A stretch of 64,000 nucleotides of DNA from Lepidostoma basale (lineage: Eukaryota > Arthropoda > Insecta > Trichoptera > Lepidostomatidae): the NCBI GenBank assembly GCA_022606425.2, contig JAHDVF020000231.1:62001-126000 (forward strand), written 5' to 3'. A program made the translations under genes and the position numbers. Positions 2,885-61,560 of this stretch are shown here, in pieces; positions within the stretch are counted from its first letter, which is position 1; each line of letters begins with the position of its first letter. The notes under the pieces are model-generated. The model ran no database searches and was not told the origin of the DNA. It saw only the letters and a list, made by a program, of their open reading frames with translations.

Positions 2885-3575
2885 GGCACATTAAAATCAA
2901 TCAAGGATTTATCAATGAAAGCGAAAATAGCCGTTCACAATAAACTACTGGTCCCAACCCACATGTATGTAATTAAAGCATAGAACTAGCAGAAGAAGGA
3001 AGAAAACACAATAAATGTGGTAGAGATGAGGTCTCTGAGACGTATGTGTGGTAAAACGATGAATGACAGAATTTCAAATGAGAGTGTAGAGCGGAAGAAG
3101 ATATTATAAACAAAATTATGATAGGATCGCTGCATTGGTTTGGATATATGGAGCGCATTGATAGAGATTTTTTTTTCTTGTATACAACAGGTTTTTTGAA
3201 CCCAATTACTGTATACACATTATTTTTAGCATGACTGATTCACATGACATGTGATAGGTAGCCAATCTATCGCCATTTTATTGTCACGTGAATTCTACAC
3301 CAGACCAAAGACAGTGTGACAATCACACTGCCTTCGCCGGGAATCGAACCCGGGGCCTTCGATATGGAAGTCAGAGCCATTACCACTCTGCTACGAAGGT
3401 CGTCAGTTTATAAAGTAGAAAAAGTATACGTTAATAGAGATGAAAGTAAGGAGTTGCAGAAATTGACGTGCGCGCATGCCACAATGTATGAATGAAGTGA
3501 AGAGAAGTATGTCAGGACAAAACAATGTTGCCTTCCTTTATTTCTGCTTACTCCTTCTGGGAGACGGCGTGATGA
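2885..3575 (+). pseudogene. RTE-A LINE copy interrupted by SINE-1
   Basis: A decayed RTE-A copy runs from about 2885 to 3166, is interrupted by SINE-1, and resumes about 3403-3575 (KVYVN region to GGAGACGGCGTGATG). Many indels and stops are present. The interruption shows that the SINE arrived after the LINE. Confidence 0.75.
3167..3403 (-). mobile_element. SINE-1, tRNA-derived
   Basis: The minus strand begins with a tRNA-like head at 3401-3330. It has an A box TAGCAGAGTGG (complement of 3383-3393) and a perfect B box GGTTCGATTCC (complement of 3340-3350), so it has a type 2 RNA polymerase III promoter. A non-tRNA body follows (CACACTG.. to GTATACAG), ending in an A run (T9 at 3169-3177). 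It has no coding capacity. It is inserted in an RTE-A remnant. Other copies are at 6318, 19815, 30286 and 52850. Confidence 0.85.
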
Positions 3576-5157: not shown

Positions 5158-5199
5158 ATTAATTACATCCAATGTAAAATCATATTATTGTACGCTAAG

Positions 5200-5440
5200 G
5201 CATTAACACTTTGGAATTCCATAGTAATATACTTAGTAAATTAAAAATAACTTTGTTTATTCCAATAATTATTTAAAAAATAATGAAAAACACGACATAT
5301 TTTGGAGGATACCTCTATCTATAAGTGTAAACATATCAATTATATTTTTACACCTGAAGATGGAGGAATCCTCTGAAACATTTCGTATTTTTTAATAATA
5401 AGTGTATTAAACAAAGTTGTTTTTTTATTTTGTTAGTAAA
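5200..5440. mobile_element. HF2 fold-back element with two hammerhead arms
   Basis: Inverted arms (left 5205-5325, right 5345-5435) share AACTTTGTTTAAT- and TTTAAAAAATA-type ends. Each arm carries the HF2 hammerhead region. The left, minus-strand ribozyme is decayed (5285-5325). The right one is annotated separately. There is no protein. Confidence 0.65.
5348..5397 (+). ncRNA. Hammerhead ribozyme motif, HF2 (site mutated)
   Basis: The core reads CTGAAGA (5354-5360), stem II GAGG/CCTC, then GAAAC (5375-5379). The cleavage triplet is TTC where intact HF2 copies have GTC, so stem III is weakened. The upstream ACAC and downstream GTAT leave only a partial stem I. It was probably a ribozyme but is likely inactive now. 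Confidence 0.6.
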
Positions 5441-14059: not shown

Positions 14060-14430
14060 ACAACATGACTTGCGAAATCAAGACAAGAGTAGACACAGTC
14101 AGAAGGAAACATCTCGAACATCAGAAATGAAAATATTGCGACCTATCGTGGGTAACTTAAGAGATAAGATACCTAACGGAGAGATTCGCAGAACCTGCAA
14201 TATTGGTGACATTGTGAGATGAGTTAGACTGAGAAGACGATTCTGAAAGGACCGAATTAAGACGATGGACCCAGTGAGCATTTCTAAGATCGCAATTTAC
14301 GATACCGTCGACCACAAGGAAGGCCACAAAAGAGATGGATATAAAGTTGAACCTCTTCATCACAGGACCAAAATCAATATCCTGTCTAAACAGATTAACA
14401 GAAGTTTGTCGTATAAGCACAGATAAGATG
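14060..14430 (+). pseudogene. LINE-B retrotransposon remnant
   Basis: Frames read KTRVDTVRRKHLEHQK, RDKIPNGEIRRTCNIGDIVR, then RRRF.KDRIK.MDPVSISKI. It matches LINE-B, with stops at conserved tryptophans (TGG to TGA, twice), so it is decayed. Confidence 0.7.
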
Positions 14431-17279: not shown

Positions 17280-17520
17280 ATAAAATTTAGTATGTCTCTT
17301 TTTTTATATACTTTGTATACAAAATTCACATTTATTAAAAAAATATATAAAAATGAAATATCAAACCTGTTTAGCACTAACCAGCCTTCATCAGTGATAT
17401 TATATAAATATTTTAAATAAATTGTAAGTGTTATAAATGTGAGTGTTGTTCACAAAAATATAAAAATAAAAATGTACAATACAAAGTTATGGCGAACATA
17501 GAAGAAAATTTAGTAGAAAT
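17280..17520. mobile_element. HF3 fold-back element, decayed
   Basis: The left arm carries TATACTTTGTATACAAAATTC and a minus-strand hammerhead remnant (17408-17357) with TAAAC in place of GAAAC. The right arm (17440-17515) ends in ACAAAGTTATGGCGAACATAG, the complement of the start of the 49240 copy. The second ribozyme is deleted. Confidence 0.65.
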
Positions 17521-17559: not shown

Positions 17560-18290
17560 ACTAACTTACCATCACACCGTCTCCCCGGAGGGGTAGGCAG
17601 AAAGAATGGAACGCCACACTGTTCTGTCCTGACATACGTCTCTCGCTTCCTCTACATTCATACATCTTGTCATGCACGCACGTCGATTTTTCCGACTCCT
17701 CACGTGACCGATATTCAATATTTGATTGATTTGATCGTGCCACGTTTTCCTCGGCCTTCCTCTATTTCTAGTTCTTCTTATTATATACCTTCTTTACCAT
17801 TCTCTCTTCACTCATTCTTTTCATGTGTCCAAACCATCTTAATGACCCTCTCCTTATTTTGTTCATAACACTTTCATTCGCACCACATTCACTTCTTATA
17901 CTTGCATTTGTCACTCTATCATAAACAGATTTGCCACACATTCGTCTTAGAGATCTCATTTCTACTGCATTTATTCTACTTTCATCCTTCTTTTGCCAGT
18001 TCCATGCTTCACTTCCATACATAAGGGTCGGCACAAGAACACCATTGTGCACTGCCATCTTAGCTTTTTTGGATAGGCTTTTGTTTGCGATGACAACTTT
18101 AAGTGCACCATTTATTCTGTTGCCTGCCCCAACCCTTCTTTCAATATCCTTCTCCACCCTCCCATCCTTTGTAAACATACTTCCTAAATAAACAAATTCA
18201 TCCACTTGTTCCAGATTTTCACCGTTTACACTAATGTTGCAGACTGTCATGCTTCCTTCTTTTTCGAAAATCATTACCTTTGTGGTATTT
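17560..18290 (-). pseudogene. RTE-A LINE, near-open copy with frameshift
   Basis: A 168-codon minus-strand frame (18274-17768) encodes MIFEKEGSMTVCNIS, LEQVDEFVYLGSMF, RRVGAGNRINGAL, GSEAWNWQKKDESRINAV, SNASIRSECGANES and GSLRWFGHMKRM. A deletion at about 17770 shifts the frame in the VYVND region. The rest reads on to the CCCC/GGGG hairpin and GGTGTGATGG end at 17572, followed by TTAG repeats. Confidence 0.87.
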
Positions 18291-18365
18291 ATAACATTAT
18301 TTATTTATATAAACAGTTAATAATATTGAAATATCAAAGTGTTTCCGCCAAAACAATGGATCATT
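18290..18365 (-). repeat. HF1 leader fragment
   Basis: The complement of the HF1 leader: AACAGTTAATAATATTGAAATATC, then TGTTTCCGCCAAAACAATGGA. There is no ribozyme. It directly abuts the 5' end of the RTE-A copy. Confidence 0.6.
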
Positions 18366-26999: not shown

Positions 27000-27720
27000 T
27001 CAAGGACAAAGTAAAATATAAAATCTTATGTCATTACTGAAATCTCGTGATGATAATTTTAAATAATAATTAAATAAATCGACGTTTTAGGCGAAACCGG
27101 TTGCTGTCAAAATAAATAAATAAAGTGGAAGAAATTATTTAAAAATACATCGTTTCATTATTATAAAAAATACACATTAGTTAGTATTAAGGTTTTCAAG
27201 AATTGTATTCAAGGACAAAGTAAAATAAAAATCTCATATAATTACTGAAATCTCTTGATGGAAGATACTTTTAAATATTAATTGAATAAAACGACGTTTT
27301 TAGGCGAAACCGGTAGCTGTCAAAACAAATAAATAAATTGGAAGAAATTATTAAAACGTATCTGGGAAGCATGTTTACAAGAGAGGTAAAAATGAAGAAA
27401 GACATCGAAAAAAGGGTTGGTGCTGGGAATAAAATAAATAGCGCACTCAAAGTCATTACTGCAAATAGAAAAATATCCATAGAAGCAAAGATGGCAGTAC
27501 ACAATGGAGTTCTAGTGCCAACCCTCATGTATGGATGTGAAGCTTGGAGCTAGCAAAAGAAGGATAAAAGCAGGCTATACGCCGTAGAAATGAGATCACT
27601 AAGAAGAATGTGTGCCTACCCCTCAGTGGAAATGGCGTGATAGTTAGTTAGTTAGGAAGAAATTATTTAAAAAAACATCGTTTCATTCATTCATTTCCTT
27701 AAAAAAATTAGTATATTTTT
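27000..27720. repeat. Unclassified repeat, two tandem-like copies
   Basis: 27000-27160 and 27185-27352 share AGTCGTATTCAAGGACAAAGTAAA, GACGTTTTAGGCGAAACCGG and GCTGTCAAAA. The second copy is split by an RTE-A insertion and resumes at 27655. GGCGAAACCGG resembles part of a hammerhead, but no CTGANGA is placed to complete one. Confidence 0.55.
27353..27654 (+). mobile_element. RTE-A insertion with 13-bp target duplication
   Basis: GGAAGAAATTATT occurs at 27340-27352 and again at 27655-27667, flanking an RTE-A copy. The copy reads YLGSMFTREVKMKKDIEKRVGAGNKIN to VPTLMYGCEAWS, then jumps to CAYPSVEMA and GGCGTGATAGTTAGTTAGTTAG. It is 5'-truncated and internally deleted. The duplication defines the insertion ends exactly. 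Confidence 0.9.
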
Positions 27721-30285: not shown

Positions 30286-30512
30286 ATAAAACAGGTTGCT
30301 TAAGCCCAATTACTGTATACACATTATTTTTAGCTATTATATTGATGATTCACATGACATGTGATAGGTAGCCAATCTATCGCCATTTTACTGTCACGTG
30401 AATTCTACACCAGACCAAAGACAATGTGACAATTACACTGCCATCGCCGGGAATCGAACCCGGGACTTTCGGTATGGAAGTCAGAGCTTCTAACCACTCT
30501 GCCACGAAGGTC
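30286..30512 (-). mobile_element. SINE-1, tRNA-derived, inside HF1 centre
   Basis: The B box GGTTCGATTCC and an A box TGGCAGAGTGG are intact on the minus strand. The body matches 3167 closely. It is inserted at the axis of a palindromic HF1 element. One extra base in the A-box region (GCTTCTAACC) distinguishes it from the 3167 copy. Confidence 0.85.
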
Positions 30513-31675: not shown

Positions 31676-31890
31676 CGTTTCAAAGAACATTATCTCTTAG
31701 TTTTGTGTGATTTCTCCTTCTCGACCGACGTTTCGGAGATGGTTGCAGTCTCCGAGTAATGTGGTGATGGTAAGGTTACCACCACCACATTACCCTGAAG
31801 ATGGAGACTACAACGATCCCTGAAACGTCGGTCGAGAAGGAGAAATCACACGTTGTTACCCAAAATCACACAAAACCAATTACTGCCAAC
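31676..31890. mobile_element. HF5 fold-back element
   Basis: The arms 31700-31775 and 31776-31858 are inverted. The outer parts share GATTTCTCCTTCTCGACCGACG, and the centre is a near-perfect hairpin of TAATGTGGTGRTGGTAA with its complement. Both arms carry a hammerhead-type motif with the stem III loop missing altogether (GAAACGTC). Confidence 0.72.
31788..31836 (+). ncRNA. Hammerhead-like ribozyme, HF5 right arm
   Basis: TTACC, CTGAAGA (31795-31801), a stem II region TGGAGA..ATCCC, GAAAC (31822-31826), GTC (31827-31829), GGT. ACC and GGT pair as stem I. GAAAC runs straight into GTC, so stem III can only form between two molecules (ACGT self-complementary). Stem II pairs imperfectly here. 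Confidence 0.55.
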
Positions 31891-35985: not shown

Positions 35986-37020
35986 TTCGTCAGCCTCACT
36001 TGTACACTTTCTAGGCCTGTCCCCGTCCATCCGGGACATACATTTAATTTGCTCAAAAACAATGAGATGTCAGGCCACATCCACTCTACTTTGTAATTCC
36101 TTCTGGGTCCCGCACTTCCACATATAAACTACTATTTATTAAAAATATAGAAATAATAACAATCTTACAAAATAGAGTCTTACCACCTAGTTTTAAACAT
36201 AATACACACTTAGAACTATTCACATGGAGGAAGACGGGACACAGTATGAGGGAGGAGGAGGGATGTGAGGATCTGGTGTGGAGCAAAGTAGAGGGGGTCA
36301 GCAAGGTTAGAGTAGAGGGAAGGGTACAAAATAAAGTATACGAGTAAATAATCTAAAAACAAAACAGTATAAAATTAAAGTACATTGGGCAATCCACGCC
36401 CCACCAGGGGGCAGTATATACTTCGGGTCAGAACAGTCAACGGGAGCCAGTGGTAACACAGTCCAGAGACAGTCGCCACAGGACTCGCAGAACGCAACAC
36501 AGGGCAGCCAGCAGGCAGCATGGCTGCATGTCAAGATACATAAAGTATATCATAAATGGACTTGAGGTGAGCTATTTACGAAAACGGCGCTATACAAATT
36601 AGCCGAATTATTATTATATTCATTATGGAATTCTACAATTTTCACACCTTCATTTTACCCAAAATTAAAAAATTAAGTAAAATAAGTTTTTTTTGGTATT
36701 TTCCACTTTACTTTAGACAGCTGAATACCGTATTATCATAACTCGGTTAGTATTATTCAAAAACTAAGCACGTAACACAAAGATCGATGTTATTTACATT
36801 GAATTTCAAAGGCCGCTCTCTGTCTCTCCAAATATTGCGATAGCTATCGCTCCCCTATTGCGCTTTCCTCTTCACTCTTGCTACTCGTACATCCTAACGA
36901 GGGGCAATAAAAACCGAGTGTCCCACTTGGCGAGTGCATTTAAATTCGGCGTACTCATTCAACAGTTCCGATGCGCAAAAACATAACTTCATTACGGAAA
37001 ACTCATTTTATTTATATTTT
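35986..37020. other. Mostly unrecognised DNA
   Basis: Contains a possible detached LINE-F 3' end at 36565-36615 and a purine-rich stretch at 36225-36330. There are unrecognised minus-strand frames of 72 and 75 codons (36304-36086, 36534-36307). No host gene can be supported. Confidence 0.35.
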
Positions 37021-37024
37021 TTAT

Positions 37025-37350
37025 AAGGATTAATTGTATCTCAATAGAGACGAAGATGTAAATTGTTTTCTGGGAAGAGACGGTGGTGGCCGAGCCTCTT
37101 CCAGAACTTATGACCTGTCATTGGTTGGATTGAGCGATCGCTTTATGTTTAACAACATTCCCTATTCCGCCTAATGACCACCACGTCTGACAAATTTTTG
37201 GAACTTGAATATATGGTAGGTTTCCTCGCCTATCTTTACATTTTTAAGTTCACTCTACACTAGCGTCATCTATTAAGATTAGAAAGCATTAAGCAGAAAA
37301 CCTTTATCATTGTACTGTGAAAGTCTCTGCAAATCATACAGTACTAGATT
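37025..37350 (+). mobile_element. MITE-T, left part
   Basis: Begins AAGGATTAATTGTATCTC with the shared TIR, then GGTGGCCGAG, GACTTATGACCTGTCATTGG and CTAGCGTCATCTATTAAG. The right TIR is missing, so the copy is truncated. Confidence 0.72.
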
Positions 37351-39755: not shown

Positions 39756-39977
39756 ACGTCAGTTTTATAGCTGTTTTATTATATTTTATAGGAACGACGT
39801 GTTTCGTCCTTCTAAGGCATTATAAAATGCAGACTCAATCAAAATTTAAGCATTATCATATGCAGATCAAATGCAATAGGTCATCCCCATAAAATGTATT
39901 AAAACTTCTAGAAAACTGACGTTTTCATTCGTATTAATTATTTAATACGGAGTTTTACATCACTGTTCAAGAATCAA
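39743..39977. mobile_element. HF4 fold-back element
   Basis: The arms 39752-39830 and 39835-39925 are inverted (ACGTCAGTTTTATAG, GGAACGACGTGTTTCGTCC with partners). The tail is TATTTAATACGGAGTTTTACATC.. and AAGAATCAATAAA. The minus-strand core of the left arm reads TTATAATGCC..GACGAAAC, not a canonical hammerhead. Confidence 0.65.
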
Positions 39978-39999
39978 TAAACTTCACAATTGATTACAT

Positions 40000-40056
40000 T
40001 TTGTCGCGACAACTGTTTCGCTTACTGATGTTAGCATCGTCAAGTCTTACAATCAA
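40000..40056 (-). ncRNA. Hammerhead ribozyme motif, HF1 left arm (C3 mutated)
   Basis: TTGTAAGAC, TTGACGA (40043-40037), stem II GCTAAC..GTAAGC, GAAAC (40019-40015), AGTTGTC, GCGACAA. Stem I TTGT/ACAA is present. C3 is T and stem III has lost self-complementarity at one base. Confidence 0.65.
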
Positions 40057-40118
40057 CTCGATCATCGTCAGGTCTTACAATCAACTCAAGTTTGTACGAT
40101 TGTACAAACTTGAGTTGA

Positions 40119-40171
40119 TTTCAAGACCTGACGATGCTAACATCGGTTAGCGAAACAGCTGTCGTTACAAA
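40119..40171 (+). ncRNA. Hammerhead ribozyme, HF1 right arm
   Basis: CAAGAC, CTGACGA (40128-40134), a perfect stem II GCTAAC ATCG GTTAGC, GAAAC (40152-40156), AGCTGTC (site at 40163), GTTACAAAA. All core positions are intact. This copy with 46396 and 8411 provides the stem II covariation. Confidence 0.78.
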
Positions 40172-40284
40172 ATATAATCAATTGTGATATATATAACAAA
40201 GTTTTTTATTTAAACAGTTAATAATGTTGAAATATTAAAATGTTTCCACCAAAACAATAGATGATCTAATCCAATTTTTGTACA

Positions 40285-44640: not shown

Positions 44641-45440
44641 TGCAGACTATTAAAATTCAATTCAATTTGTTTTATTTGAAAACAAAATTAAAAGTCATGT
44701 TCATTATATAAATTTTCCAATTTATTTATAATTATATTGTAGAATAAGACCTTTGAACATTGAGTTAGAAATCATTTAATTTATTTCACGTTTTATTTTT
44801 TGATTGGGTGATCTAATTCTAGAAAGAGCCGTTCTTAACCCTTTATTGATGTAAAGATGTGTGACTCAATAGATGATTCATAAAAAAAGTATGAGATATT
44901 GAATTAAATAAAGGTCATTTTACAATACCTTTGAAGGCGTTTCTATATAAATAAAGGGGTAATTTTTACGAATCAATTAATCCGTAGCTTTCCAAAATGT
45001 GAATTTCTCTATTACTCCATCAATGGATGAGCGCTTCACTTGATCCAACTCTCAGTCATTAAAATTTTATGACCTTAATAAATTCCTGAAATTTTAATTA
45101 CGTACCGATTCTCTAATCAACTAGATATAACCGGAGTGGTCCAAAAGTTATAATTTAATTATATTCCGTTATCTGGGACACTTCCATCTATTACTTAATT
45201 AATATTTTGCATTTCGTTCCTTGCTGGAAAAATACTCCATTTAAAAGCGGTGAGTACTCGATTTTAGACAAATAATTTTTCAGCCAGATAGAGCGATAAA
45301 AATAAGAAAAGAGTAGAAAGCAACGAGAAGGGAAATAAGGTAGAAACAGGGCTGAACAATGCGACAAAAGTATATAATTTAAAATTATTTTAAATACCAA
45401 TCATTATTTTAAATACCAATCATATTTTAAATACCAATCA
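44641..45440. other. No recognisable gene
   Basis: AT-rich DNA. AAATACCAATCAT is repeated three times at 45392-45440 directly before the RTE-A copy. Confidence 0.4.
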
Positions 45441-45444
45441 TACT

Positions 45445-46125
45445 TATAAGTGTGAAAGAAAAAAACTTGGAACAGGTGAGGGAATTTATGTATTTAGGTA
45501 GCATGTTCACAGCAGATGCCCGAACGGATAGTGACGTCGAAAGAAGGGTTGGTGCGGGCAACAAAGTGAATGGAGCTTTAAAAATAGTTATTGGAAACAA
45601 GAATTTATCAATGAAAGCGAAAACGGCCGTTCACAATGGAGTTCTGGTCCCAACCCTAATGTATGGAAGCGAAGCATGGAACTGGCAGAAGAAGGATGAG
45701 AGTAGAATAAATGCGGTAGAGATGAGGTCCCTAAGACGTATATGTGGTAGAACGATATACGACAGAATCTCAAATGCTGATATAAGAAAGGAATGTAGAG
45801 CGGAAGAAGGTATTATGAACAAAATTATGAAAGGATCGCTGCGTTGGTTCGGACATATGGAACGCATGGATGGAGAAAGAATGGTTGAGAAAGTATACGT
45901 TAATGATGTAAATGGGGTACGAAGTCGAGGCAGACCGAGGAAAACATGGCATGACCAAATCAATCAAATTTTAAAGGTTGGTCATGTTAGAAGTCGGAGG
46001 AGTCGACGTGCGTGTATGACTCGTTGTATGAATGTGGAGGAATCTAGAGATGTTTGCCAGGATAGAGTAGTGTGGCGGTCCATTCTCTCTGCCTACCCCT
46101 GCGGGGTTTGTTTGTTTGTTTATTT
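45445..46125 (+). CDS. RTE-A LINE, long open copy (GTT-type)
   Basis: A 226-codon open frame (45452-46132) runs KEKNLEQVREFMYLGSMFTADARTD, RRVGAGNKVNGAL, LMYGSEAWNWQKKDESRINAVEMRSLRRICGRT, NADIRKECRAEEG, GSLRWFGHMERMDGERMV, RGRPRKTWHDQINQILKVGHVRSR, WRSILSAYPCG. The last codons are replaced by a GTTT repeat (46106-46123), so the frame reads through. The catalytic core is missing by 5' truncation. An RTE-clade reverse transcriptase tail. Confidence 0.9.
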
Positions 46126-46132
46126 TAAATAA

Positions 46133-46360: not shown

Positions 46361-46395
46361 CATTATAATATCCCAATTTCCTTTTATTCACTGAA

Positions 46396-46450
46396 GAGTG
46401 TCGTGACAGCTGTTTCGCCAACCGATGTTGGCATCATCAGGTGTAAAAAT
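46396..46450 (-). ncRNA. Hammerhead ribozyme, HF1 left arm
   Basis: TACAC, CTGATGA (46440-46434), a perfect stem II GCCAAC ATCG GTTGGC, GAAAC (46416-46412), AGCTGTC, ACGAC. Core intact. Stem III is self-complementary ACAGCTGT. Stem I is weak in this copy (C/A at the first pair). Confidence 0.78.
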
Positions 46451-46469
46451 AAACTTTTAAAACAGTTTA

Positions 46470-46526
46470 TTGTAACACTTGATGATGCCAACGTCAGTAT
46501 TCGAAACAGCTGTCGCGACACTCTCA
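46470..46526 (+). ncRNA. Hammerhead ribozyme motif, HF1 right arm (C3 mutated)
   Basis: TTGTAACAC, TTGATGA (46479-46485), GCCAAC with a degraded partner GTATTC, GAAAC (46503-46507), AGCTGTC (46514), GCGACA. TGT/ACA can form outer stem I. C3 to T and a weak stem II suggest loss of function. Confidence 0.65.
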
Positions 46527-46589
46527 GTGAATAAAATGAAATTGGGATATTATGACAGTGTTTTAAATGTTAACAGTAATATTTTAAAT

Positions 46590-47345: not shown

Positions 47346-48190
47346 TAACTAACTAACTAACTAACTAACCATCACGCCGTCTCCCCGAAGGGGTAGGCAG
47401 AAAGAATGGACTGCCACACCTTTCTTTCCTGACATATTTCTCTCGCTTCCTCAACATTCATACATCGTGTCATGCACGCGCGCCGATTTCTCTGACTCCT
47501 CACATGGCCGACATTCAATATTTGATTTATTTGATCGTGCCACGTTTTCCTCGGTCTTCCTCTATTTCTGGTTCCATTTACATCATTAACATATAATTTT
47601 TTTACCATTCTTTCTTCATTCATTCTTTCCATATGTCCAAACCATCTTAATGATCCTTTCATTATTTTGTTCATGACACCATCATTCGCACCGCATTCAC
47701 TTCTTATATTTTCATTCGACACTCTATCATACACAGAATATCCACACATTCGTCTAAGAGATCTCATTTCTACTGCATTTATTCTACTTTCATCCTTCCT
47801 ATGCCAGTTCCATGCTTCGCTTCCATACATAAGGGTCGGTAGAAGAACACCATTGTGCACTGCCATTCTAGCTTTTTTGGATAGGTTTTGGTTTGCGATG
47901 ACAACTTTAAGTGCACCATTCACTTTGTTGCCTGCCCCAACCCTTCTTTCAATATCCCTCTCCACTCTCCCATCTCTTGTAAACATACTACCTAAATACA
48001 CAAACTCAACTACTTGCTCCAAGTTTTCACCATTCACGCTAATGTTGCAGACTGTCGTGGTTTCTTCCTTTTCAAAAATCATTACCTTGGACTTATTAAC
48101 ATTCATCATCAGATCATTTCGCATGCATACCTCATACATACAATTCACCAGGACTTGTAGTTCATGCTCGTTGTCAGCAAGTAGGACAGC
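47346..48190 (-). CDS. RTE-A LINE, longest minus-strand open copy
   Basis: A 258-codon frame (48148-47372), open further up to 48188 (AVLLADNEHELQVLVN). It runs MRNDLMMNVNKSKVMIFEKEE, LEQVVEFVYLGSMF, RRVGAGNKVNGAL, LMYGSEAWNW, RRMCGYSVYDRVSNENIR, RWFGHMERMNEERMV, RGRPRKTWHDQINQIL, to FGETA. The hairpin is CCCCTTCGGGG; the tail is five TTAG units. Truncated just after YADD. ACAGCTT at 47340-47346 and 48186-48192 may be a short target duplication. The least decayed member of the TTAG subfamily. Confidence 0.92.
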
Positions 48191-48199
48191 TTTTTATAT

Positions 48200-49239: not shown

Positions 49240-49590
49240 TTACTTGTCTTCTATGTTTGCCATAACTTTGTGTTGTAGATGTTTCATGTTTCTTTTTTGA
49301 TATACTTTGTATACAACACTCAAATTTATGAAAAAAAAATTAAAATCAAATATCAAACATGTTTCGGACTAACCAGCCCTTCATCTGTGATATTAAATAA
49401 ATATTTAAAGTTTTATAAAATTGTTTACAAATATGGTCATATTTGACAGATGTTATAATTATAATTATAACATCTGTCAAATCTGACCATATTTGTGAAC
49501 AAATTGAACACTGATGAATGGCTGGTTAGTCCGAAACATGTTTAATATTTAATTTTTATTTTTATAATAAATTTGGGGGATAAAGACGTG
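49240..49590. mobile_element. HF3 fold-back element
   Basis: The left arm runs from CTTCTATGTTTGCCATAACTTTGTG (49249) through a minus-strand hammerhead (49398-49352, CAGATGA for CTGATGA). The centre is a perfect 20-bp hairpin (ATTTGACAGATGTTATAATT and complement, 49441-49482). The right arm carries a plus-strand hammerhead and is truncated after about 49575. Confidence 0.78.
49500..49552 (+). ncRNA. Hammerhead ribozyme, HF3 right arm
   Basis: CTGATGA (49511-49517), stem II GGCT/AGTC, GAAAC (49533-49537), AT, GTT, TAATATT. The core is intact, but upstream TTGAACA no longer matches the 3' strand, so stem I is lost. Confidence 0.62.
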
Positions 49591-50869: not shown

Positions 50870-51345
50870 TCTGTTCTATATACGAGTATTATATAATATA
50901 CACAGCTATAAAGTCGAATTAGTTTCGAGATCCGGGATTCGGGGATTATATTCCCTACTCGCAGAATAGTGAGTTGTGTTGAATGCGACAAAAGAGGAAC
51001 ACGTAACAGTTTACGCACCTAAACATGAGCATATATAGCGTATGTACTTTGTGAATACATACACAAAAGAGTAATCCTCAGTAAATTCTTACCCTAAGTA
51101 CTTCGTGTCGGATTATTCAACGAGCTTTTTCTCTTTTTGTCGGTTGGCTTCAGAGCTCTGTTCATCGCGTAAAAGTTTATGTTTATATTTCGTTGAAACG
51201 TATTTATAAATTTATTTTTGCAAAATGTAAATATTCTAAAATAAAGCTGGTATTCTAACATATGAATAAGTTTTTTCCGCGTGATTGTACTTTCAAGGAT
51301 TAGTGCTTAAAAATAAAGAAATTCACAAAAAAAAACTTTTTTATG
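50870..51345. other. No recognisable gene
   Basis: AT-rich DNA with no element ends recognised. Confidence 0.4.
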
Positions 51346-51396
51346 TAGGTACTTTGTATTCAATTCGAACATTTATTAAAAAAATAAAATAAAAAT

Positions 51397-51448
51397 AAAA
51401 TATCAAACATGTTTCGGACTAACCAACCCTTCGTCAGTGATATTATAT
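51397..51448 (-). ncRNA. Hammerhead ribozyme, HF3 left arm
   Basis: The minus strand reads AATATCA, CTGACGA (51437-51431), stem II GGGTT..AGTCC, GAAAC (51415-51411), AT, GTT, TGATATT. Stem I is a perfect 7-bp AATATCA/TGATATT. Stem III is the self-complementary ACATGT. The cleavage triplet would be GTT, allowed by the NUH rule but usually slower than GUC. Confidence 0.8.
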
Positions 51449-51659
51449 AAAAATTATAACTAAGAAAAATAAAAATAAAATAATAATAATAATAAAATAC
51501 ATACTTATTTGTAATATTACATCAAACCTTTTTTTGTACAAATTATAAACAATAAAAACTCATTAAAAAAATATACTTAAATGTTATAAAATTGTATAGT
51601 TCTTATTGGGTTCCCAATTAGAACTAATTATTATTTTAAATATATTCATAATATTTTTT

Positions 51660-51805
51660 ATAAGGATTAATTGTATCTCAATAGAGACGAAGATGTAAAT
51701 TGTTTTCTGGGAACAGAATATGGTGGCCGAGGCGCTTACAGGACTTATGACCTGTCATTGGTTGGGTTGAGCGATCGTTATATGTTTAACAACATTCCCC
51801 ATATT
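51660..51805 (+). mobile_element. MITE-T fragment inside HF3
   Basis: AAGGATTAATTGTATCTC, AGAATATGGTGGCCGAGG, GACTTATGACCTGTCATTGG, ending AACATTCCCCAT. The right half is absent. Confidence 0.72.
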
Positions 51806-51911
51806 TATAATATTTGTTATAACAAAAGCATAAAGTTCCAAAATAAATCATAATAACATCTGTCAAAACTGATCATATGTGTAAACAATTTTATAATATT
51901 TTAAATATTTA

Positions 51912-51963
51912 TATAATATCACTGATGAAGGGCTGTTTAGTCCGAAACATGTTTGATATTTAA
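51912..51963 (+). ncRNA. Hammerhead ribozyme, HF3 right arm
   Basis: AATATCA (51915-51921), CTGATGA (51922-51928), stem II GGGCT..AGTCC with one G.U, GAAAC (51944-51948), AT, GTT (51951-51953), TGATATT (51954-51960). Same 7-bp stem I as the left arm. All catalytic positions are present. Confidence 0.82.
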
Positions 51964-52164
51964 TTTTTTTGTTTTTAATAAATGTGAGTGCTGATTACAA
52001 CGTATATAAAAAAATAAACATTAAACATCTACAACAAAATGTTATGACAAACATAGAAGAAATGTTTTAAATGTGTCGACATCAAAATTCTCTTTTAACT
52101 TGCATGTCATATTTTTATCAAAATAAAAACTAAACTAATTAATTAAATAAACTAAACTAATTAA

Positions 52165-54399: not shown

Positions 54400-54818
54400 A
54401 AGGATTAATTGTATCTCAATAGAGACAAAGATGTAAATTGTTTTCTGGGAACAGAATATGGTGGCATAAAAATTGGAGAGACATCTCCAGGCGTAATGTA
54501 GTACTGTATGATTTGCAGAGCCTTTCATAGTGCATAAATAAAGATTTCTGCTTAATTCTTCCCAATCTTAATAGATGACGCTAGTGTAGAAACTAAAAAA
54601 TGTGGAGATAGGTGCAGCATTCTAACATATATACAACTTCCAAAAATTTGTCAGACGTGGTGGTCGTAAGAAGGGCAGAATGGAATGTTGTTGAACATAA
54701 AGCGATTGCTCAACTCAACCAATGACAGGTCATAAGTCCTGTAAGCGCCTCGGCCACCATATTCTGTTCCCAGAAAACCATTCACCTCTTCTTTTCAATT
54801 GAGATACAATTAATCCTT
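54400..54818 (-). mobile_element. MITE-T, complete copy
   Basis: The 419-bp element starts AAGGATTAATTGTATCTC and ends in the complement. Terminal inverted repeats extend about 70 bp each, through TTGTTTTCTGGGAACAGAATATGGTGGC and its partner. The body contains ATAAAGATTTCTGCTTAATTC and TAGATGACGCTAGTG. No transposase. The flanks (TTTTAC and ATAAAA) give no clear duplication, so the superfamily is open. Confidence 0.85.
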
Positions 54819-54994
54819 ATAAAAAAAATATTTATCCGCAATGGGTAAAATCCAGTATTCGTCTACAAGAATTCGTATACATTCAAAATGTTTTCACAAA
54901 AGTTTCATACTAATCTATTAAGTATGAAACACATGGTGTTATTCAAATTTTTATCGTCTCGGAATATCTCATATTATATAAAAGGAAGTATAAC

Positions 54995-59238: not shown

Positions 59239-59425
59239 GTATACAACTTCTAAAAATTTGTCAGACATAGTGGTCATAAGAAAGGTGGAATGGGGAATGT
59301 TGTATTACATAAAGCGTGCGCTTAACCCAACCAATGACAGGTCATAAGTCCTGTAAACACCTCGATTACCATATTCTGTTTCCAATTTGCATCTTCGTCT
59401 CTATTGAGATACATTTAATCCTTGA
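59228..59425 (-). mobile_element. MITE-T, partial copy
   Basis: From TATATGTATACAACTTCTAAAAATTTGTCA through ATAAAGCGTGCGCTTAACCC and GACAGGTCATAAGTCC to CGTCTCTATTGAGATACATTTAATCCTT. The left half is missing; it abuts the RTE-A 5' truncation point. Confidence 0.75.
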
Positions 59426-60337: not shown

Positions 60338-61198
60338 ATGTCTGCTTTACGCGGACGACGCCGTTCTCGTTGCGGATAGTGCGGACGAATTACAAGTCTT
60401 GGTGTCGAGAATGTATGAGGTATGCAAGTCGAACGATTTAATGATGAATGTCGGAAAGTCAAAGGTGTTAGTTTTTGAAAGGGAAGAGCAAATGACAGTT
60501 TGTAATATAAGTGTAAATGAAGAGAACTTGGAACAGGTGAGCGAATTTGTGTATTTAGGTAGCATGTTCACAGCGGATGGCCGAACGGACAGTGATATTG
60601 AAAGAAGGGTTGGTGCGGGTAACAAAGTGAATGGAGCTTTAAAAGTAGTTTTTGGAAACAAGAATTTATCAATGAAAGCGAAAATGGCCGTTCACAATGG
60701 AGTTCTGGTTCCAACCCTTATGTATGGAAGCGAAGCATGGAACTGGCAGAAGAAAGATGAGAGCAGAATAAATGCGGTAGAGATGAGGTCCCTAAGACGT
60801 ATGTGCGGTAGAACGATGTACGACAGAATCTCAAATGCTGATATTAGGAAAGAGTGTAGAGCGAAAGAAGGTATTATGAACAAAATTATGAAAGGTTCGC
60901 TTCGTTGGTTCGGACATATGGAGCGCATGGGTGAAGAAAGAATGGTTAAAAAAGTATACGTTAACAATGTAAATGGAGTAAGGAGTCGAGGTAGACCGAG
61001 GAAAACATGGCATGACCAAATTAATCAAATATTAAAAGTTGGTCATGTCAGAAGCCGGAAGAATCGACGTGCGTGTATGACTCGATGTATGAATGTGGAG
61101 GAAGCTAGAGAGGTGTGCCAGGATAGAGTAGTGTGGCGGTCCATTCTCTCTGCCTACCCCTGCGGGGAAACGGCGTGATGGTTTTGTTGTTGTTGTTG
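60338..61198 (+). CDS. RTE-A LINE, (GTT) subfamily, most complete copy
   Basis: Open from 60339 to the stop at 61176-61178. It starts CLLYADDAVLVADSADELQVLV with the catalytic YADD (60348-60359). It then runs NVGKSKVLVFEREEQMTVCNIS, LEQVSEFVYLGSMF, RRVGAGNKVNGAL, LMYGSEAWNWQKKDESRINAV, RWFGHMERMGEERMV, RGRPRKTWHDQINQIL, ending CGETA. The hairpin is CCCCTGCGGGG and the tail (GTT)n. TAATAATATA at 60328-60337 and 61199-61208 is a 10-bp target duplication within a LINE-D copy. About the last 280 residues are intact; the polymerase fingers and endonuclease are absent. Confidence 0.93.
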
Positions 61199-61335: not shown

Positions 61336-61560
61336 CTGGACCAGTCTGTCGATGCCCGGCGAGCCTGACAAAACCGGTCGCTATCGAAATAGAGACGAAA
61401 GTAGAAGTAGTTAAAAAAAACATCGTTTTCAATTATTTAAAATGAACTTCCATCAAGAGATTTCAGTAAAATCATTTGATTACAATAAATTGCAATTGCA
61501 ATTTATTCATTTAAATTCTATGAGATTTTCACAACACCTGTTTTGACAATCAAAATATGC
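61336..61560. repeat. Unclassified repeat (as at 27000)
   Basis: CTGACAAAACCGGTCGCTATCG, AAACATCGTTTTCAATTATTT, GAACTTCCATCAAGAGATTTC match the repeat at 27000-27720 in inverse orientation, and part of 3985-4190. Confidence 0.5.

Follow-up and report, generated by a model that had tools for sequence, protein, structure and literature searches.

Head-to-head pairs with hammerhead-like motifs in Lepidostoma basale are probable insertions of Penelope-like elements with inverted pLTRs

Introduction

The locus HF3 lies in a window of 64,000 nucleotides from Lepidostoma basale (Trichoptera; contig JAHDVF020000231.1, positions 62,001 to 126,000), and each of its two inverted arms carries a motif resembling a hammerhead ribozyme. 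The question raised by this locus is whether it represents a fold-back unit that replicates as such, as was proposed in the first-pass annotation of the window, or the product of another kind of element.

Several known systems are close to this arrangement. Penelope of Drosophila virilis is a Penelope-like element (PLE) with inverted pLTRs, and retrozymes carry hammerheads in direct repeats. Minimal PLE hammerheads were reportedly described by Cervera and De la Pena in 2014, and a paper of 2017 is said to treat dimeric PLE hammerheads. In the accessible part of PMC3846280, head-to-head inverted pLTRs of Penelope elements with a tail on one of them are described, which contradicts the earlier view that paired inverted copies were undescribed. 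All available PLE sequences have hammerhead ribozyme (HHR) motifs, according to the accessible part of PMC6155905. Inverted pLTRs with one tail and hammerheads in pLTRs are therefore already published, and the useful part of the present analysis is the two-ended mechanism. A literature search, which most subscription journals lay outside, returned no paper on hammerheads in inverted pairs or on twin priming of PLEs, and the two-ended mechanism in the form given below is not stated in the literature examined.

The feature at HF3 is real, well supported, and of a known kind, namely PLE insertions with inverted pLTRs. With a probability of roughly three in four (0.77), HF3 and its kin are short, dead PLE insertions that arose by reverse transcription (RT) primed from both target strands, followed by joining. 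This reading removes a tempting misinterpretation, in which hammerhead fold-backs replicate by means of ribozymes on both strands.

Results

Structure of the HF3 pair

The features of HF3 and of the related copies in the window are listed in Table 1. The two arms, which belong to family A, differ at their outer ends. In an nhmmer comparison with the 29-copy family A model, the left arm terminated at model position 237 of 282, and in unit coordinates it is about 40 nt shorter at its end than the right arm. In the genome search with HF3, for which 40 of 4,271 candidates were scored, 34 of the 39 long matches (the window itself excluded) terminated at 52061-52064. The tail of the right arm contains, at 52044, an ATG that corresponds to the start of the MANIEE reading frame in the majority sequence of the 29 copies.

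A SINE-type repeat in the loop between the arms is flanked by a 22-nt direct repeat of 91% identity (51642-51663 and 51801-51822), which is likely the duplicated target of that repeat. The flanks of the HF3 pair as a whole were checked as well, and no convincing target duplication was detected there, a point against the insertion model given below. HF3 itself shows the two arms and the single tail.

The left arm, read on the minus strand, showed the order AATATCA-CTGACGA-stem II-GAAA-ACATGT-T-TGATATT, and the right arm showed AATATCA-CTGATGA-...-TGATATT on the plus strand. Stem I has 7 bp in both, and stem II reaches up to 6 bp when G-U is included, which confirmed the original observation of a hammerhead motif in each inverted arm. 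It had also been supposed that a transcript would contain one free ribozyme. Against this, a 594-nt HF3 transcript is predicted to fold so that its two arms pair (-154 kcal/mol, z -11.7), and most arms in close pairs of families C and D lack a promoter, as described below.

Table 1. Coordinates of HF3 and of related units in the window
Feature	Position	Strand	Basis and remarks
HF3 whole pair	51337-52061		minus arm left, plus arm right
HF3 left arm, inverted family A pLTR unit, tailless	51337..51457	-	nhmmer, model of 29 genome copies
HF3 left-arm hammerhead-like motif	51399..51444	-	sequence, motif analysis; predicted cleavage 51406/51405
SINE-type repeat inside HF3 loop	51664-51800	.	further copies in the window
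HF3 right arm, family A pLTR unit with tail	51801..52061	+	nhmmer, genome match ends
HF3 right-arm hammerhead-like motif	51915..51960	+	sequence, motif analysis; predicted cleavage 51953/51954
HF3 PLE tail, stretch between two inferred RT start sites	52022..52063	+	29-copy model; definition of PMC11167929
Second family A head-to-head pair	49246..49579		minus arm 49246-49461 with tail, plus arm 49462-49579 truncated
Family A pair	17292..17506		minus arm tailless, plus fragment with tail; 11-nt direct repeat AAAATTTAGTA at both outer ends
HF2, family B pair	16953..17200		extra 3' stretch on right arm; 11-nt flanking repeat AAGTATAATAA
HF2, family B pair	38244..38720		extra 3' stretch on right arm; 12-nt flanking repeat, 1 mismatch
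Family B pair, absent from first-pass annotation	5192..5431		12-nt flanking repeat AATGTAAAATCA
HF1, family C pair	39977..40266		arms 39977-40057 minus, 40114-40266 plus with tail
HF1, family C pair	46367..46578		arms 46367-46454 minus, 46465-46578 plus
Family D pair, decayed	27023..27163	.	nhmmer
Family D unit, single arm	61341..61482	+	nhmmer

The hammerhead-like motif

The 33-nt motif of family A was found with up to 2 mismatches at 1,651 places in the genome (838 forward and 813 reverse), whereas the reversed control gave 0, and the HF3-type motif is therefore not due to chance. The motif of family D occurred at 14,221 places with up to 3 mismatches, again with 0 in the reversed-pattern control; family D is the youngest family, and its motif is the most abundant hammerhead-like motif found. 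Single copies of the motif are often decayed.

Representatives of six families share a common order, which consists of CTGANGA (CTGTCGA in D), one additional base between that position (A9) and stem II, a stem II of 4-6 bp with differing sequence, GAAA, a palindrome, and, in some of them, stem I. Representatives of five families (A, B, C, E, and F) have the core CUGANGA...GAAA. In the six representatives the palindrome (ACATGT, ACCGGT, or ACAGCTGT) forms a loop-less stem III, so that two RNAs would be needed to form it completely. For hammerheads with a palindromic stem III, dimeric action is discussed in the accessible part of PMC3088659, and that of PMC6155905 also discusses dimeric hammerhead action. 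Compared with the HF3 arms, stem I measured 4 bp in D, 3 bp in E, 0-5 bp in B, 0-3 bp in C, and 0 bp in F. Among 68 copies of family C, two-sided changes were detected in stem II at pair 11-22 (TA in 43, CG in 15) and at pair 10-23 (CG in 49, TA in 6). Taken singly, the lengths of stem II were matched by 2-25% of shuffled loops, and it is the agreement of stem II across families, not the single lengths, that favors a structured RNA.

The covariance-model check suggested with the first-pass annotation was negative: the Rfam hammerhead models gave no match in the window (E up to 1), and none in the HF3 right arm alone or in three other copies (E up to 10).

In family D the core reads CUGUCGA (A6U), with T at A6 in all 59 arms that cover the motif gap-free, and the exact A form of the D motif occurs at only 15 genome places. 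Low activity is reported for an A6 variant of the hammerhead in the accessible part of PMC3088659, and HHR mutants of the Anolis PLE still insert in vitro, with insertion unaffected (PMC11167929). The changed core of D and the insertion of the Anolis mutants together suggest that the hammerhead-like motif is probably dispensable for insertion, and both argue against the replication role that had been assigned to the ribozyme. The motif, a putative catalyst, may nevertheless serve RNA processing.

Relation to Penelope-like elements

The motif sits in the pLTR of Penelope-like elements, as was observed for units of families A, B, and D. Decayed GIY-YIG coding sequence was detected upstream of the family A unit, on the same strand, in 10 of 29 HF3-type loci. 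In the search with PF01541, 150 of 542 candidates were scored and gave at least 62 matches, from which 30 loci were taken. Family B units followed GIY-YIG in at least 7 of these 30 loci, GIY-YIG being the only coding link for B, and the D motif followed it in 16 of the 30, a count that includes two second views (L059 and L056 repeat the elements of L036 and L052). For family C the link to PLEs is weak, with GIY-YIG upstream in just 1 of 29 loci as a weak match on the right strand.

RT and GIY-YIG were found in one reading frame in a copy of family D. The frame C236 (758 aa) contains GIY-YIG and, in its upstream part and in the same frame, RVT_1 (5e-14, L105), and the D pLTR with motif and tail lies downstream of it (L106). 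Proteins assigned by name to insects and to other animals are among the RT relatives of C236. As in PLEs, the pLTR has an optional tail of 30-45 nt at one end, and two 3' ends were detected in families A, C, and D.

By eye, three of the 30 GIY-YIG loci resemble ordinary genes, L031 and L033 being UvrC-like and L032 SLX1-like. The open frames of L031 (G000:C102) and L033 (G000:C729) exceed 620 aa and look like bacterial UvrC, and these two contigs may be bacterial, from a symbiont or from contamination.

Distribution of tails in the pairs

In the 769 Mb of genome searched, 106 loci of all families were readable. Two second views (L056 and L059), the window itself (L001 and L061), and matches of fewer than 40 model positions were left out of the geometry counts. 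With the profile models, 21 of 27 neighbors within 2.5 kb were head-to-head in family A, 30 of 43 in C, and 31 of 37 in D. Both outer ends could be delimited in 61 of these 82 head-to-head pairs, and 21 were set aside with one end unclear.

A tail was present on exactly one arm in 58 of the 61 delimited pairs (p = 1.6e-14 against even chance), among which some wide-gap pairs (e.g., L090, L078, L073, and the window C pair 16736/18364) are maybe unrelated neighbors. By family, one tail was found in 13 of 15 pairs of A, the other 2 having both, in 20 of 20 pairs of C, and in 25 of 26 pairs of D, the last having none (p = 4e-7 against even chance). At least one tail per locus is favored in A and C because these loci were picked through tail-bearing queries, which does not apply to the D loci. 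In ten closely read D pairs, five tails were on the right arm and five on the left.

These tails bear on a first alternative, in which the head end of a single cDNA (or antisense RNA) folds over and primes copying of the same molecule, and the resulting hairpin becomes the inverted pair. Self-priming on an antisense template was proposed for rotifer Penelope elements in the accessible part of PMC3846280, and the head-to-head order of the arms agrees with it. However, self-priming predicts equal outer ends, and not a tail on one arm.

Arm starts, joints, and source of the arms

In close pairs, 40 of 48 arms of family C and 25 of 36 arms of family D began at the model start. The C and D models had been cut at that base, and the arms were therefore checked for continuation upstream. 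As a result, the match to the upstream pLTR extended by no more than 1 base in 32 of 40 arms of C and in 23 of 24 arms of D; the remaining C arms matched for 2-5 bases, and the D arm of L100 matched for 40. A TATATAAA box (TATA) was located 30 nt upstream of the fixed base in 16 of 16 longer D copies, and for this reason the fixed base is most simply regarded as the RNA 5' end in D. In family C, where a TATAAA box lies 28-30 nt upstream of the fixed base in only 2 of 13 unpaired copies, it is perhaps the RNA 5' end. Most close-pair arms of C and D carry no promoter, since they stop at the fixed base, which in D is just past the TATA box. In nine of the ten closely read D pairs both arms start with ACCAGT, one arm of L098 having one more C; in L100, one arm continues upstream past this start, and the filler there is pLTR sequence. 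The arm starts of family A are variable, and no clear TATA box could be placed at them.

No two of the joints read (19 in family C and 13 in family D) have the same sequence, and the arms are separated by locus-specific filler of 1-80 nt; the pair is therefore made anew at each insertion. Among fillers of at least 9 nt, 6 of 16 in C and 3 of 8 in D resembled the arm ends more closely than did 98 or more of 100 shuffled versions, so that 9 of the 24 tested fillers repeat arm ends beyond chance (e.g., L097); for the other 15, one of which is the pLTR sequence of L100, no convincing template was found. The joints of family A are mostly filler-free and sometimes near-symmetric (L094, 63/63; the 49 kb pair of the window, symmetric at model position 68, 68/68; L093, 65/72; L024, 45/50).

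Such near-symmetric, palindromic joints in family A fit self-priming. Mates that share private variants fit both self-priming and the two-ended mechanism, and were found in 3 of 10 D pairs compared (L036, L052, and L058, those with the longest overlaps, 368-528 nt). The other 7 pairs showed no private mate variants, and the mates of L037 look different. In a rank test of low power, as short arms carry little information, the mate ranked against the other arms at a mean percentile of 0.41 in A, 0.64 in C, and 0.57 in D; mates are not closer than other arms in A and are weakly closer in C and D. Self-priming leaves the locus-specific filler between arms that stop at the same base unexplained, and with its expectation of equal outer ends it is an unlikely origin of the pairs.

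Orientation and target duplications

A second alternative is that independent PLE insertions came to lie head-to-head by chance, helped by AT-rich targets. It would suit HF3, which is without a detectable target duplication and whose left arm is further from other family A copies than the right arm (mean identity 0.81 vs. 0.87). Arms of clearly unlike divergence at L021 and L028, each with at least three family A arms, also agree with it and suggest repeated insertion at one place.

The orientation of neighbors argues otherwise. Among 100 listed exact places each for families A and D, all 22 neighbors within 1 kb were head-to-head (minus then plus), and none was tail-to-tail or direct; nor do direct-repeat hammerheads bound a unit, as in a retrozyme. 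In addition, 32 of the 61 delimited pairs lie entirely within a duplicated target site of 9 nt or longer (8 of 15 in A, 7 of 20 in C, and 17 of 26 in D), whereas repeats of this length occurred in 1.0%, 3.3%, and 1.3% of mismatched-flank controls for A, C, and D, respectively. The remaining delimited pairs (7 in A, 13 in C, and 9 in D) lacked a duplication of that length. Each of the ten closely read D pairs was flanked by a repeat of 8 nt or longer, and in nine of them the repeat was 9 nt or longer. Short target-site duplications, which are a feature of PLEs, were also found in four pairs of the window, HF3 not being among them. Considering also the single tail per pair, chance nesting is very improbable. 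The first-pass annotation was right in that hammerhead motifs linked to a retroelement stand in a real inverted arrangement, which recurs far above chance.

The least probable origin is a fold-back element or MITE-type DNA transposon replicating as a unit with a working hammerhead per strand, which the intact motif in both HF3 arms and the thousands of motif copies might suggest, but this original interpretation was rejected on the locus-specific joints and one-arm tails, as joints and loops vary between loci where a shared loop is expected, the outer ends are unequal, the arm ends are internal PLE sites, most close-pair C and D arms end short of the promoter, the arms are predicted to pair with each other, and the D core has T at A6 in every gap-free arm.

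Discussion

Two-ended insertion model

The one-tail rule, the fixed arm end just past the TATA box in D, and the filler between the arms lead to a concrete model of two-strand priming. In this model, the pLTR would contain, in order, a promoter, the RNA 5' end, the hammerhead-like motif, and two RT start sites about 40-45 nt apart. After a staggered cut of the target, RT on PLE RNA would be primed by both strands: priming by one of them at the inner start site would give the tailless arm, and priming by the other at the outer start site the tailed arm. Both cDNAs would extend toward the RNA 5' end, and their ends would then be joined, often with filler, to yield a head-to-head inverted pair inside a target duplication of about 9-14 bp. 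The predicted RNA starts are ACCAGT in D and AGTTGATTG in C. Each arm would contain a hammerhead motif because the motif is located between the RNA start and the RT start.

The biochemistry of the Anolis PLE is consistent with two-strand priming: its protein cleaves and extends both strands, RT starts at two internal sites, and the tail is the stretch between them; the start site does not differ between the strands (PMC11167929). A symmetric form of target-primed RT, in which two polymerases, one at either side of the staggered cut, would copy a single RNA and the hammerhead would be dispensable, has about even odds of being correct. Synthesis of both cDNAs would then continue until the RNA ends on its 5' side, and the cDNAs would be sealed to each other by end joining, with filler that is in part templated. 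One tail per pair would be expected if two polymerases on one RNA must use different starts, and a hammerhead at the extreme RNA 5' end may be dispensable for insertion, as the most successful family has a changed core base. Among the 14,221 places of family D, young pairs allow the outer ends, target duplications, and joints to be read base by base.

Comparison with known systems

In twin priming of L1, the second target strand primes on the element RNA, which results in an inverted 5' part. The mechanism proposed here is similar in that the second target strand would prime on the element RNA; unlike in L1, the starts would be at dedicated neighboring sites, so that an inverted duplication and not just a 5' inversion is produced.

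The closest likeness in structure is to Pen2a_Av and its relatives in rotifers, which according to the accessible part of PMC3846280 have inverted, mostly head-to-head pLTRs, one of which bears a tail of about 30 nt, together with short target duplications and a frame with RT and GIY-YIG. In contrast to what is described there, many pairs in L. basale are short and frameless, copies of the motif are very numerous, and the arms of C and D end at one constant base, the filler between them varying from locus to locus. The Anolis PLE PAc likewise has two internal RT start sites with the tail between them and a hammerhead near the start of the frame, but its layout is tandem, whereas the pairs here are inverted (PMC11167929). 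The reading frame of PAc starts at hammerhead stem II (PMC11167929), and the ATG in HF3 is about 90 nt past the predicted cleavage site.

The motif resembles the minimal PLE hammerheads in core, stem II, stem I, and a helix III that is missing or minimal, as far as these are described in the accessible part of PMC6155905. It differs from them by the extra base between A9 and stem II in six families, by the lack of an Rfam match, and, in D, by the T at A6. Retrozymes carry their hammerheads in direct repeats and are linked to circular RNA, whereas the pairs here are inverted. Hammerheads in non-autonomous retroelement copies are shared with retrozymes, judging from the accessible part of PMC7229834 (see also PMC4918200).

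Other copies and repeats in the window

The layout of HF3 recurs in the window, as previously noted, in HF1 (family C) and HF2 (family B), which are more decayed and of which several arms have a degenerate motif; the inclusion of HF5 in this series was not upheld. HF5 (31705-31851) is a palindrome with one CTGAAGA...GAAAC and no convincing stem II, and its other arm lacks the core; it is not convincing as a hammerhead. The family A pair at 49 kb and the family A copy at 17.3 kb had not been named before. Exact flanking repeats of 11-12 nt were detected at two B pairs (5.2 and 16.9 kb) and at the 17.3 kb copy of family A, and no convincing flanking repeats at the A pair at 49 kb, both HF1 pairs, the D pair of the window, or HF5.

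Matches to Rfam miRNA and sRNA models in the window were all below the gathering scores, coincided with inverted repeats or AT-rich stretches, and were rejected. By eye, fragments of a LINE-type RT C-terminus in both orientations were seen at 45431-46132, 47372-48193, 60339-61178, and 17768-18304; they account for the largest inverted repeats of the window and for some of the spurious miRNA matches. The SINE-type repeat of about 140 bp seen in the HF3 loop is also present at 37014-37165, 54682-54829, 59290-59423, and elsewhere in the window. Two tRNA-like stretches on the minus strand, at 3329-3400 and 30439-30511 (41.1 and 29.5 bits, respectively), are possibly genes or tRNA-derived repeats.
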